64,000 bases of DNA, taken from contig JAITNN010000014.1 in assembly GCA_031290395.1 (NCBI GenBank), positions 1 to 64,000 of the forward strand. The letters run 5' to 3'. This document shows positions 4,409 to 55,660 of this stretch, piece after piece. The position numbers and the translations under genes were made by a program. A model generated the notes under the pieces. The model was not told where the DNA came from. It ran no database searches and was given only the letters and a program-made list of their open reading frames with translations. Position 1 is the stretch's first letter; every line of letters starts with the position of its first letter. The DNA comes from Mycoplasmataceae bacterium. Lineage in GTDB: Bacteria > Bacillota_I > Bacilli_A > Mycoplasmatales > Mycoplasmoidaceae.

Positions 4409-4482
4409 ATTTTCTTTCAACGATTAATATATTAGATTATAGCCCTCTCTGATAATTTAGTCAGAAGGTTCTATCTTAAACA

Positions 4483-5442
4483 TTAATTAAGAAGTTTGTT
4501 TTGTTGAGGCGTTGGAATGACATCACTTTGATTAACGGACATTCAATTTGGATTAACAAACATGTTGCTGGATTTTAAGATTTTACCTCGCATAAATGCA
4601 GAAGCAATCTCACAAGCGTCGAAATTTCTTCGACTAGATAAAATATAGTGCTGTTGTACGACACGTGGAGTATTCCCCAAGACCATAGCAATAGTATCTA
4701 AATCAATTCCTCCTTCGTGCATGATGGTAGCTAACGTTCTGCGACAAACATGAGGAGTTAAACGAAAAGGTAGATGAGATCATTTGTTAAACATACGAAA
4801 ATCATAGCCAATGGTAGTGTAACGATTTTTAGGACAGGCTTTGAAGAATTCAAAGCTTTCCTTTGGAATAAACACTTCACGGTTCTTTTTAGTCTTTTCG
4901 GTATTGATAACGATTTCGTAGAAAACTGAATTAGAAAAGTTTGATTTAATTTCGCGCTTAATTGATTGTTTAGTAAAGTCAATAGCGGTGAATTCGCCAA
5001 GTCGCATACCAGTAGAAACGAGAATATTAAAAGTATGAAGAAGTTTCATGCGGCTAAACTTAGTGATTCTACGGATGGCATTGTTGTTTTTTATTTCATC
5101 AGCATTTTGAATGTAGTCATTTAATCAAAAATAAATGTTTTGAATTTGATGAATATCTAGGCGAGTAGTGAATTTTGAAATAGCAGCTGTTCTTTGGTGA
5201 AGAAATTTACGGTTGAAGTTAATACCATAGAATTGATCGAAAGATCAGCGAAATACAGATACGACACCATGAGCAGTATTGCTATTAATGATTTTGTCAA
5301 TAACATTATTGGCGCAAGCAATATCGGTATCATAATTACCTGTAAAAGCGTTCTTGTAATGCCTAATAGTGTATCAATAGTGCAAACCACTACGCTTTTT
5401 GGCGAGTTTTAAAAGTTCATTAAAAGAAATAATGTTTTTCAT
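4483..5442 (-). CDS. tyrosine recombinase / integrase
   Basis: A 319-residue site-specific recombinase of the phage-integrase (XerC/D-like) family, which cuts and rejoins DNA through a phosphotyrosine. The first catalytic Arg lies in TGMRLGE near residue 146, the HxxR box in HVCRRTLAT near residue 230, and the nucleophile Tyr in QQHYI near residue 266. The N-terminal half (residues 1-130) fits a SAM-like core-binding domain. Four TGA-Trp codons are read through. It is the best candidate enzyme for integration and excision of the conjugative element that continues to 23 kb. A 3' copy lies at 1424-1857. Confidence 0.9.
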
Positions 5443-7107: not shown

Positions 7108-7386
7108 TTAAAACACCTGCAATCTTTCGCAAATGACTTGAAGAGAGGATTTCTCTTTCTTATCAAACGATAGACGCCCCTTAACCCCGATAATGGCACC
7201 TTGAGTCAATTGCTTGATCTCGGTGTTGAATATCGTCTTATCGACTAAGACAGGGATTAAATCGTACCATTCTTCTTCTGATGTTTCCAAATAAGGTTTT
7301 TCGACCTTAAATGTAACAAGAGCGAATTCTGGTGAGTGATTCAACTGAACGGTTTCAGTAATTCCAATTTGAGCAACAAAGTTCAT
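7108..7386 (-). CDS. single-stranded DNA-binding protein-like (OB fold)
   Basis: 92 residues, shorter than the usual 150-170 of SSB and lacking an acidic tail. The pattern VTFKVEKPYLETSEEEWYDLIPVL, IKQLTQGAIIGVKGRLSF and SLQVICERLQVF fits an OB-fold SSB of mycoplasma or plasmid type. It should coat single-stranded DNA during transfer or replication of the element. It follows the RuvA-like gene by 2 bp and precedes the small coiled-coil gene by 3 bp, so the three form one operon. Confidence 0.65.
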   Translation of the reverse strand: MNFVAQIGITETVQLNHSPEFALVTFKVEKPYLETSEEEWYDLIPVLVDKTIFNTEIKQLTQGAIIGVKGRLSFDKKEKSSLQVICERLQVF

Positions 7387-7388
7387 AA

Positions 7389-7928
7389 TTAACGAACCTC
7401 CGTTCCCATAGCAATGTGCCTAATGGCTTGGCTGATAAGATCAGACAATTCCACATCGTTGCACACGTTGTCTGGATTTAACAAAGTTAAATCAGCAGCA
7501 TACTCGATTTCGCTAGAATTGTAGCCTAAGCTTTTAAGGGCTTTGACTAAATCTGCGCTTTTCGATGCTAAGTCTGGGCTTGATTTCGCTACTTTAGTAA
7601 AACGATACCCATTGCTAATGAAAGCTTCTTTTTCTTCGATTGAAGCAAAACCATAAATGGTTTCATTCAAGAAGTTATTACGAATCTTTCCGATTTTCAA
7701 GACATAAAGTTTTTTGACTTTATTGATCTCGAAGGCGTTGGGATTAGCTACGTGGATAATGTAACCAAGGTAGTTATTTTCAAACACAATGCTGGTTTGA
7801 AGAACTGACACAACTTTACCGACAATGTAGTTTAAACATCCGTATTCACATTTCAAAGAACTATCGCTGCTTCCGTCCATTTTGTCATAGGTTTGGTTTC
7901 CTGTTGTTTGCTGATTTCTTTCAGTCAT
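7389..7928 (-). CDS. RuvA-like protein lacking the helix-hairpin-helix domain
   Basis: 179 residues. Residues about 32-100 match the RuvA domain I OB fold (YIVGKVVSVL, GYIIHV, then TIYGFASIEEKEAF, the conserved YGF..xxEkxxF signature). Residues about 125-145 resemble RuvA domain III (DLVKALKSLGYNSSEI). The middle tetramer/junction domain with its HhH motifs is missing. RuvA normally binds Holliday junctions with RuvB; without HhH this copy may bind single strands or RuvB, or regulate recombination of the element. It is co-transcribed with the SSB gene. Confidence is good for homology and low for function. Confidence 0.6.
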   Translation of the reverse strand: MTERNQQTTGNQTYDKMDGSSDSSLKCEYGCLNYIVGKVVSVLQTSIVFENNYLGYIIHVANPNAFEINKVKKLYVLKIGKIRNNFLNETIYGFASIEEKEAFISNGYRFTKVAKSSPDLASKSADLVKALKSLGYNSSEIEYAADLTLLNPDNVCNDVELSDLISQAIRHIAMGTEVR

Positions 7929-8045
7929 AATATCTCTAAGTGTTTTATAGTGGGTTCGAGAAGAGCCACTGACTTAACAATGTCGTCGTCTATCCACTAT
8001 GACTTTCTTCCTTAGCTTTACACTGGAAGTCCTCGGTCAAACTAA

Positions 8046-8096
8046 CAAAAAAACCATGCCTACGCAAGGTTCGTTAGATCTGTTAGCTTTGTCCGC
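8046..8096 (-). ncRNA. predicted short RNA, leftward, with terminator
   Basis: A promoter (TTGTAA at 8127-8132, TATACT at 8103-8108, 18-bp spacer, minus strand) predicts a start near 8096. A hairpin at 8054-8070 (ACCTTGC/GCATGGT, one mismatch, loop GTAG) runs into seven T residues, an intrinsic terminator about 50 nt downstream. The RNA would contain the complement of the 20-nt repeat 8073-8092. Read-through would enter the RuvA-like/SSB operon, so it may also act as a leader attenuator. Confidence 0.45.
8073..8092 (+). repeat. 20-bp direct repeat, copy 1
   Basis: Identical to 8161-8180 (GTTAGATCTGTTAGCTTTGT). It lies in the first 25 nt of the predicted leftward transcript. Confidence 0.9.
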
Positions 8097-8102
8097 ATCA
8101 TT

Positions 8103-8132
8103 AGTATAACTAATTTTTAAAAATTGTTACAA
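8103..8132 (-). promoter_or_regulatory. leftward promoter
   Basis: Minus-strand boxes TTGTAA (8127-8132) and TATACT (8103-8108) with an 18-bp spacer. It would serve the short RNA and/or the RuvA-like operon. Confidence 0.5.
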
Positions 8133-8160
8133 AAACTTAAATTTCGTGTAAGATATTACT

Positions 8161-8226
8161 GTTAGATCTGTTAGCTTTGTTAAAAAGGTAATAAGGAAAG
8201 CGACTAGAGGAATCTGGTCGCTTTTT
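8161..8226 (+). ncRNA. predicted short RNA, rightward, with terminator
   Basis: A -10-like TAAGAT at 8149-8154 (possible -35 TTGTTA at 8124-8129) predicts a start near 8161, exactly at the second copy of the 20-bp repeat. The transcript would end at a 12-bp hairpin (AAAGCGACTAGA at 8197-8208, TCTGGTCGCTTT at 8213-8224, loop GGAA) followed by T residues. Its 5' 20 nt are perfectly complementary to the predicted leftward RNA. No open frame fits in it. Confidence 0.5.
8197..8226 (+). terminator. intrinsic terminator
   Basis: A 12-bp stem with one T-G pair, a GGAA tetraloop (GNRA type) and a TTTTT tail. Confidence 0.75.
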
Positions 8227-8238
8227 CTATTAAATGTG

Positions 8239-8451
8239 CCGAAAAATTCGGCGCCGCCGCCAGTTTAAGATTTTGGCGGCGAATCACCCCTTTTATATTT
8301 TGTGATAGCGGGTAAAAGGTTTTAAGATGTAAAACCTTTTGTGCCAGTTTTGGATTGTGTAATTATTAAGTGATTGCGTGTTTTTTCACACAATAGCAAA
8401 AGAAAAAACTAAGCAATCACGGCACAACCCGCTACCATCATTTATGATGGT
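8239..8451. other. nested multi-stem structure, candidate origin of transfer/replication or structured RNA
   Basis: Inverted repeats in order: CCGAA/TTCGG (8239-8251); CGCCGCCA/TGGCGGCG (8255-8281); TAGCGGGT (8306-8313) with ACCCGCTA (8427-8434); AAAAGGTTTT/AAAACCTTTT (8314-8340); TGTGCC (8340-8345) with GGCACA (8421-8426); GTGATTGC (8370-8377) with GCAATCAC (8413-8420); ACCATCAT/ATGATGGT (8434-8451). The 22 nt at 8413-8434 are contiguous and every base pairs with three separate upstream segments. No gene was seen on either strand. Confidence 0.7.
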
Positions 8452-8466
8452 TTTAATTTATTAAAA

Positions 8467-8518
8467 GGGGTTAGGGTAGTTAGTAGCGACTTCAGGCGCT
8501 ACTAACTACCCTAACCCC
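8467..8518. repeat. perfect 22-bp inverted repeat with 8-nt loop
   Basis: The arm at 8467-8488 (GGGGTTAGGGTAG then TTAGTAGCG) and the arm at 8497-8518 are exactly complementary, and the loop is ACTTCAGG. It is much richer in G+C than its surroundings and has no T-run, so a terminator is unlikely. It lies 95 bp upstream of the replication-relaxation gene. Confidence 0.9.
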
Positions 8519-8572
8519 CAGCGGTGTTGTGCCGTTTTGCTCTCATAAATCGTTAAATTTTGGCAAAATTCG

Positions 8573-8606
8573 TATAATTTGTAATATGTCAATATAGTTT
8601 GACATA
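8573..8606 (+). promoter_or_regulatory. promoter and operator of the replication-relaxation gene
   Basis: TATAAT at 8573-8578 is followed at the expected transcript start by a perfect inverted repeat TATGTCAA-6 nt-TTGACATA (8585-8606). Such placement suits autorepression by the N-terminal helix-turn-helix of the product. Confidence 0.55.
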
Positions 8607-8613
8607 ATTTTAG

Positions 8614-9381
8614 ATGAAAAAAACAGAGCAAATTAAGAGTATTTTAAAGAGCGAAGAGATAGAAAATACTTTAAGGTTGATTTCTAAGTGAGGCAACCTA
8701 ACTTTGAAGCAAATAGCTATGCTGTTAGGCTGTTCAGAAAGGCAAGCTTGGCGAAATGTTTTAAAGCTTGAACCTTATGAATACTTAACTGAAAATAAAG
8801 GACTTGGGTTGATTTGTTATAAGAAATTCCCTCATAGTGCTGCAAAATTGTTTTGTGCAACTGGTTTAGGGCTTAGAGCATTAGGTTATTTGAAAGAAAT
8901 CAAGAAAGAAAAAGGGCGTATTGTTAAGACCCCTAGATGACAAACAAAGTTTAACTTTTATGAAGATGAGCATACCACTTGGTGTATTAAAGCTTTGAAT
9001 AAGCATTTGGGCAAAGGGTTTAGTCAGAAGGCTTACATAACTCCAAGGAATATGACTTTTAGTTGAAGCGATATCTACAGCAACATTAAAGAGATTTGAA
9101 GCAGCACAATTGAGGCGAGAAGACCAGATTTGGTGGTTCAGAAAGATAAGGATAAAGTCTGTATTGAGGTTGAATATATGCCGAAGTCTGACATGAGGAT
9201 GCGAATTATTTTGAGAAGTTTAATGGCATTAGGCGACTATGCGAAACGTTTTAACAAAACGATTATTTATGCGAATGATAAGAATAAGACTTACACAAGG
9301 TGATGTAGATTAGTACCTTATGTTGAAGACAACCATAAGCCAAAGATTTTAGAGATTAGAAAATTAAGTGAATTAGACTAA
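8614..9381 (+). CDS. replication-relaxation family protein (MobT-like, wHTH plus nuclease-like domain)
   Basis: 255 residues. Residues 15-60 form a winged-helix-like segment (LTLKQIAMLLGCSERQAWRNV). Residues 160-215 carry RPDLVVQ, VCIEVEYMPKSDMRMRIILRSL and TIIYANDK. This matches the Replic_Relax pattern (RPD, then EvE followed by KS..R), a PD-(D/E)XK-like fold found in proteins needed for plasmid relaxation, replication or transfer. Five TGA-Trp codons are read. It is the only rightward gene in the region and sits next to the structured segment, which is probably its target. Confidence 0.65.
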
Positions 9382-55518: not shown

Positions 55519-55660
55519 TACTCCCAAACCATAAAGAGTGTGATAGAGACAAGCTCGACGATCACACACCAACCTGTAATACAAGGTGGTAAAACTTGCA
55601 TGATGGTACTGATAATTTATCACTACTTTCATACATAACTTATGGGAGTAGTTTTCTTTT
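55514..55660 (+). promoter_or_regulatory. structured leader of metK, candidate SAM-sensing riboswitch with terminator
   Basis: A TATAAT box (55514-55519) is followed by possible P1 GTGATA/TATCAC (55540-55545 with 55618-55623), a hairpin GAG/CTC, then ACCAACC-10 nt-GGTGGTAA, which echoes the SAM-I riboswitch P4 region (GCAACC then GGTGCTAA). A strong terminator follows: CTACTTTCATA (55623-55633) with TATGGGAGTAG (55641-55651) and TTTTCTTTT. The competing helix GTGTGAT/ATCACAC could swap with P1. The position before metK fits control by S-adenosylmethionine. It is not a standard SAM-I consensus: the P2-P3 arm is too short. Confidence 0.5.
55623..55660 (+). terminator. intrinsic terminator in the metK leader
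   Basis: An 11-bp stem with two G-T pairs, a 7-nt loop and a T-rich tail, ending 12 bp before the metK ribosome site. It implies attenuation rather than simple termination of an upstream gene. Confidence 0.8.

Follow-up and report, generated by a model that had tools for sequence, protein, structure and literature searches.

A candidate anti-leader RNA opposite the ruvA-like/ssb operon of a mycoplasma conjugative element

The region at positions 8046-8226 of the window, the 64-kb stretch of DNA analysed here, probably encodes a dedicated anti-leader RNA, an antisense device capable of acting in trans that would open the first stem of the leader of a ruvA-like/ssb operon and thereby control expression of this operon. 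The DNA comes from a draft genome of ~1.0 Mb that reads UGA as Trp, and the window covers the first 64 kb of its contig C3. The genus holds 35 other species, and all genomes compared are draft MAGs; the source of this mycoplasma lineage is presumably the termite gut. The region lies in a conjugative element. Among the proteins it encodes are a tyrosine integrase (gene at 4483-5442) and two that resemble those of mycoplasma ICEs, one TraG/TraD-like and the other a VirB4-like ATPase. Both RNAs, and their pairing in the cell, are predicted from the DNA. The features are as follows.

7108-7386, minus strand: ssb-like gene of the operon (weak OB-fold match)
7389-7928, minus strand: RuvA-like first gene of the operon (RuvA_C domain)
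7845-7865, minus strand: boxA, GATAGTTCTTTGAAA followed by TGTGAA, at +232 of the predicted transcript and inside the first ORF
7929-8096, minus strand: leader of the ruvA-like/ssb operon, predicted start ~8096, with the 5' end GCGGACAAAGC matching GCAGGCAAACC of relatives in register
8039-8049, minus strand: 3' arm of leader stem P1, UUUGUUAGUUU, pairing with leader nt 8-18 (8079-8089)
8051-8072, minus strand: attenuator-like hairpin P2 of the leader, with a U-run (8047-8053) that overlaps its 3' side and continues past it
8073-8092, minus strand: repeat copy A, leader nt 5-24, which is the P1 5' arm and linker up to the base of P2
8103-8132, minus strand: promoter of the ssb-operon leader, TTGTAA-18-TATACT (-10 at 8103-8108), from the promoter scan, with a 6-nt gap to the RNA
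8126-8154, plus strand: weak divergent promoter, GTTACA-17-TAAGAT (-10 at 8149-8154), counted manually with 8/12 matches
8161-8180, plus strand: repeat copy B, the 5' end of the plus RNA and complement of the leader 5' arm
8161-8226, plus strand: predicted anti-leader RNA of ~65 nt, composed of a 20-nt anti-arm, an A-rich linker and a terminator hairpin
8195-8226, plus strand: intrinsic terminator-like hairpin of the plus RNA (strong predicted fold)
8418-8540, no strand assigned: branched, oriT/origin-like structure 5' of the rep-like gene, outside the RNA pair

The two copies of GTTAGATCTGTTAGCTTTGT are identical at 20/20 positions and lie 88 bp apart from start to start, one at the predicted 5' end of each divergent transcript, which confirms the arrangement given in the preliminary description of this DNA. 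Within the window, this is the sole exact direct repeat of 20 nt at a spacing of 20-200 bp; the next longest at such spacing has 18 nt and is inside an ORF, and none of 200 shuffles equalled the 20/20 match. GTTAGATCTGTTAGCTTTGT occurs only twice across 317 genomes of the order, both times at this locus, and further copies were absent from the viral contigs, phages and plasmids searched. The borders of the repeat match RNA features, as it begins right after GCGG and stops at the base of P2. Since copy B, the predicted first 20 nt of the plus RNA, is transcribed in the direction opposite to copy A, it forms the exact complement of the leader 5' arm.

The predicted starts at ~8096 (minus) and ~8161 (plus) agree with those described earlier. 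The minus promoter was recovered by the promoter scan, and its 6-nt gap between the -10 element and the RNA is common to most relatives. On the plus strand, the -10 TAAGAT proposed before is present, while the promoter as a whole is weak and absent from the output of the scan. Its -35 element overlaps the minus -35, and because of this common -35 region the use of the two promoters is probably mutually exclusive.

The plus RNA contains no start of an ORF of at least 20 aa on the plus strand within 8161-8226, and its whole length folds with -25.3 kcal/mol (z -5.6 to -6). With the leader it forms a predicted duplex of ~21 bp (-34.2 kcal/mol), in support of an RNA pair with complementary 5' ends. 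In this window pair, GUUAGAU at the 5' end of the plus RNA and AUCUAAC in the leader linker are both predicted to be unpaired. Intrinsic terminators had been proposed on both RNAs. The plus hairpin has a strong predicted fold; the minus hairpin contains an internal mismatch, folds more weakly (z -2.4) and is a poor terminator alone. A terminator scan flagged neither 8195-8226 nor 8051-8072.

The minus RNA had been read as a free small RNA. Instead, it appears to be an operon leader of a conserved kind with a boxA: its predicted start lies ~168 nt ahead of the ruvA-like gene, with ssb coming next. Leaders of relatives were located through searches for the ssb and VirB4 genes and comparison of the upstream regions. 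A conserved leader was found in G021 (two loci), G028 and G025, and G005 has two copies of a related one; two further leaders are in G006 and one is elsewhere in the window's own genome (G000:C18). The two leaders in each of G005 and G006 are near-identical. The RNAs of relatives begin with GCAGGCAAACC or a variant of it, 6-7 nt past a TATA-type -10, and the window counterpart is TATACT, 6 nt and then GCGGACAAAGC. Comparison of TGCGGACAAAG with TGCAGGCAAAC gives 8/11 identities in register, a match reached at ~0.1% of positions.

In the predicted folds of the first 75 nt of most leaders, the 5' arm pairs across an inner hairpin and U-run. For P1, several relatives have the arms AAACC/GGUUU, the window has AAGCUAACAGA/UUUGUUAGUUU and G006 has AAUUAGU/AUUAGUU, and the leader of G035 has the same layout of P1, P2 and U-run with the unrelated letters UUGCUUAAG/CUUAAGCAA. 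A P1-like helix of at least 5 bp arises in ~38% of shuffles of any single leader and is thus not significant singly, so the case for P1 is its in-register recurrence together with G035 and G005. The R2 covariance model, built on the leaders of four relatives, misses the window leader (4 bits), and the body of the window leader has therefore diverged. Judged by sequence, the window leader is homologous to those of the relatives on the basis of its 5' end, promoter gap, boxA and layout. A nearly invariant core of the leader RNA, GGTTTCTAGAAAAAGCTAGCGGTAACGTTTAGCTAA, with a GNRA-type hairpin, was seen at L046 8594-8722 (minus), L049 1535-1652, L100 979-1096 (minus) and L099 2367-2502 (minus). Rfam gave no match for the region of the RNA pair, the leaders or the origin structure. 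A leader peptide, MMRTKLTDLTNLA at ~8100, was considered and rejected, since its start codons are at or upstream of the predicted RNA start; the relatives have no equivalent.

The 15-mer GATAGTTCTTTGAAA early in the operon is identical to the boxA of the rRNA operons of the genus, which we take to match the Gram-positive rRNA boxA. The longer GATAGTTCTTTGAAATGTGAA of the window is 21/21 identical to that of G005 and nearly identical to those of most other leaders, and the position of the box ranges from +173 to +232 over the ten leaders in which it was measured. Exact copies of GATAGTTCTTTGAAA number 14 in 36 genomes of the genus, with nine in ssb-type leaders (window, G028:C30, G025:C63, G005:C48 with two, G006:C4 with two, G000:C18 and G035:C4) and five in rRNA operons, where four are immediately ahead of 16S rRNA and one is in the spacer after it. 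The chance expectation is ~0.0006 copies per 64 kb, and the reversed sequence has no copy in the same 36 genomes. Since GATAGTTCTTTGAAA is confined to ssb-type leaders and rRNA operons, we read it as the boxA of the genus.

BoxA is the site of NusB/S10-dependent antitermination (PMC12691694, PMC5725501). Control by boxA is known mainly for rRNA, for lambdoid phages and for some genes, suhB among them. The ssb operon of the window resembles the rRNA type in carrying an identical 15-nt box early in the transcript (PMC12691694, PMC5725501), whereas here the box is inside the first ORF of an operon of a mobile element. From this sequence match we infer that the ssb operon may undergo antitermination through boxA. 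It is conceivable, if rather doubtful, that the element family borrows the host rRNA boxA for its ssb operon and that the anti-leader RNA of some members gates the passage of polymerase past the attenuator to boxA. With an rRNA boxA in an operon of an ICE, the host machinery for rRNA antitermination would, if this is true, be put to a new use.

The preliminary description had expected paired changes in both repeat copies among related elements, and these were found in G025, whose VirB4 is 56% identical to that of the window. For the window and ten leaders of relatives, the 250 bp upstream of each leader was searched with its own first 40 nt. In G025, nt 6-23 of the leader, CAAACCAGAATATTGTTA, recur upstream with 18/18 identity at a spacing of 80 bp, a match reached in none of 200 shuffles. 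Reading away from the leader, GATATAAATATGGG comes before the upstream copy, and TAAAAATCAACATCATAAG and a hairpin with six Ts at its end come after it; a divergent -10, TATAAA, lies ~6 nt before the copy, and an A-rich linker follows it. The predicted plus RNA of ~60-64 nt (z -5.0) is laid out like that of the window. Between the two elements, only 9/18 arm positions agree and the other nine differ, whereas the copies are identical inside each element. Cognate pairing is the strongest in both (-34.2 vs -18 to -27 kcal/mol for the window, -26.9 vs -12 to -20 kcal/mol for G025), and the predicted co-folds of both elements open P1 and keep P2. If the anti-leader RNA did gate passage to boxA as considered above, its match to its own leader would make its action specific to the element, and co-resident elements would then be regulated separately, each by its own RNA. 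Repeats that are matched within, yet different between, two elements make the co-evolution of RNA specificity directly testable here.

G025 is the only one of the ten relative leaders with a second repeat copy; no such copy was present within 250 bp upstream in G005, G006, G000:C18 and G035. In G021 and G028, a small RelE/YafQ-like toxin-like ORF, recognized by eye, is directly upstream of the ssb leader (L046 8761-9072, L100 1132-1410), occupying the place that the anti-leader RNA has in the window and G025. One leader of G021 has a weak 11-nt match 230 bp upstream, inside the toxin-like ORF, at a level reached by 1 of 200 shuffles among 11 tests.

We consider that the leader 5' arm would fold over P2 and the U-run and pair with the sequence past the U-run to form P1. 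The free 5' GUUAGAU of the plus RNA may first bind the unpaired AUCUAAC linker of the leader, and strand exchange would then displace P1, resulting in a 5'-terminal duplex of ~21 bp with P2 and the U-run intact. The outcome may be lowered ruvA-like/ssb expression, either via early termination at P2/U-run before boxA or via cleavage of the 5' duplex. That the effect is repressive is a guess, to which we lean only slightly.

The repeats could also be operators located downstream of each promoter for a protein such as the rep-like protein or an element repressor, with the short RNAs incidental. Each copy contains GTTAG-N4-GTTAG, which elsewhere in the window is seen only in the arms of the origin hairpin (8470 and 8502), giving four matches vs 0.07 expected; RTTAG half-sites are dense around the operator candidates (7 vs ~1), and an ATTAG..CTAAT palindrome overlaps the minus -10. 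However, when the repeat and the hairpin region were compared without bias, the score was no better than that of shuffles, the identity spans all 20 and all 18 positions and so extends beyond contact positions, and the repeat ends coincide with RNA structure. The G025 repeat, moreover, lacks GTTAG and still keeps the orientation, a similar spacing, the -10 gap and the terminator. We regard operators as an unlikely explanation. G025 also bears on whether the repeats are recent, functionless local duplications and the promoters and terminators chance features of AT-rich DNA, as the absence of a second copy in most relatives and the weak plus promoter of the window might suggest. Although their repeat sequences differ, these two elements, with VirB4 proteins as distant as noted above, share one layout, keeping orientation, the 80/88 bp spacing, -10 gap, linker and terminator. 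Two independent neutral copies of exactly the P1 arm are improbable, and we give neutral duplication still less weight than operators.

Finally, the RNA pair had been proposed to set the choice between the replication/transfer module and its neighbour in the manner of antisense copy control, and the plus RNA is indeed flanked by the ssb operon on one side and by the origin-like structure and the rep-like gene on the other. Nevertheless, the plus RNA ends ~390 nt short of the rep-like gene, which has promoter-like sites of its own, the G025 pair lies between the ssb operon and a TraG-like gene on a contig without a rep gene, and the ssb operon is convergent with the rep-like gene in the relatives having one. 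Because of the early end of the plus RNA and the G025 contig without a rep gene, copy control is unsupported, and we consider a countertranscript of this type very improbable.

The anti-leader RNA has likenesses to several known systems. The plasmids ColE1, R1 (CopA) and pT181 make a short antisense RNA from the target's own DNA that controls a primer or rep. The RNA proposed here is similarly a short antisense RNA on the leader of an element gene; unlike in those systems, a second repeat copy provides the complementarity and the target is a ruvA-like/ssb operon. In the pAD1 par locus, regulatory complementarity arises from direct repeats that are transcribed in opposite directions (PMC7472228). 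The repeats of the window and G025 are likewise read in opposite directions in their predicted transcripts, a likeness to this type I toxin-antitoxin of the Fst/Ldr group. The pAD1 locus, on the other hand, has convergent promoters and one shared bidirectional terminator, and its RNA I encodes the Fst toxin, whereas here the promoters are divergent, the two RNAs have separate hairpins and the ssb-operon leader, which lacks a toxin ORF, is the target. The absent toxin ORF and the divergent promoters rule out a par/Fst locus.

For Gram-positive conjugation operons, processive antitermination of the pLS20 type has been named conAn and depends on an element-encoded protein and its own RNA; RfaH is given as the sole such system known for conjugation operons of Gram-negative bacteria (PMC8955417). 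Compared by description, the ssb operon resembles conAn in having an antitermination signal near the start of an operon of a conjugative element (PMC8955417), but here the signal has the look of a host rRNA boxA, in an ssb/ruvA-like operon instead of the transfer operon. In the part of the literature covered, we found no description of antisense-RNA control or antitermination in Mollicute conjugative elements.

The gene at 8614-9381, here called rep-like, had been taken for a replication-relaxation gene, an assignment that finds no support: PF13814 (Replic_Relax) was not among its Pfam matches at E<=1. The protein shows weak, sub-threshold matches to HTH and AHJR-like restriction endonuclease domains and conserved PD..EVE..K residues, and its structure model (pLDDT 48) was too poor for its fold to be interpreted. 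The 335 nt at 8226-8560 fold with -142.7 kcal/mol (z -12.4). Counterparts of the branched structure therein are present at L011 1275-1398 and L012 1272-1392, in the two relatives with an intact rep-like gene, and 20 of 48 pairs are changed on both sides among the three sequences; a model of the structure had a confident match in no other genome of the genus. PD-(D/E)XK-like domains are carried by MOBC relaxases (PMC5714925). From sequence and predicted fold, the structure is likely an oriT or origin of the MOBC type beside a possible HTH/PD-(D/E)XK-like protein. The promoter-like sites of the rep-like gene are spanned by an 8-bp inverted repeat, TATGTCAA..TTGACATA (8585-8606), which is likely an operator.

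Elsewhere in the window, a search for an attachment site at the tRNA cluster gave no repeat of at least 13 nt. A second, truncated copy of the 3' part of the integrase gene is present near the contig end (1428-1850 vs 4480-4900) and seems to be a relic of another element. At 55526-55609 on the plus strand, a SAM (S box) riboswitch scored barely over the Rfam threshold.
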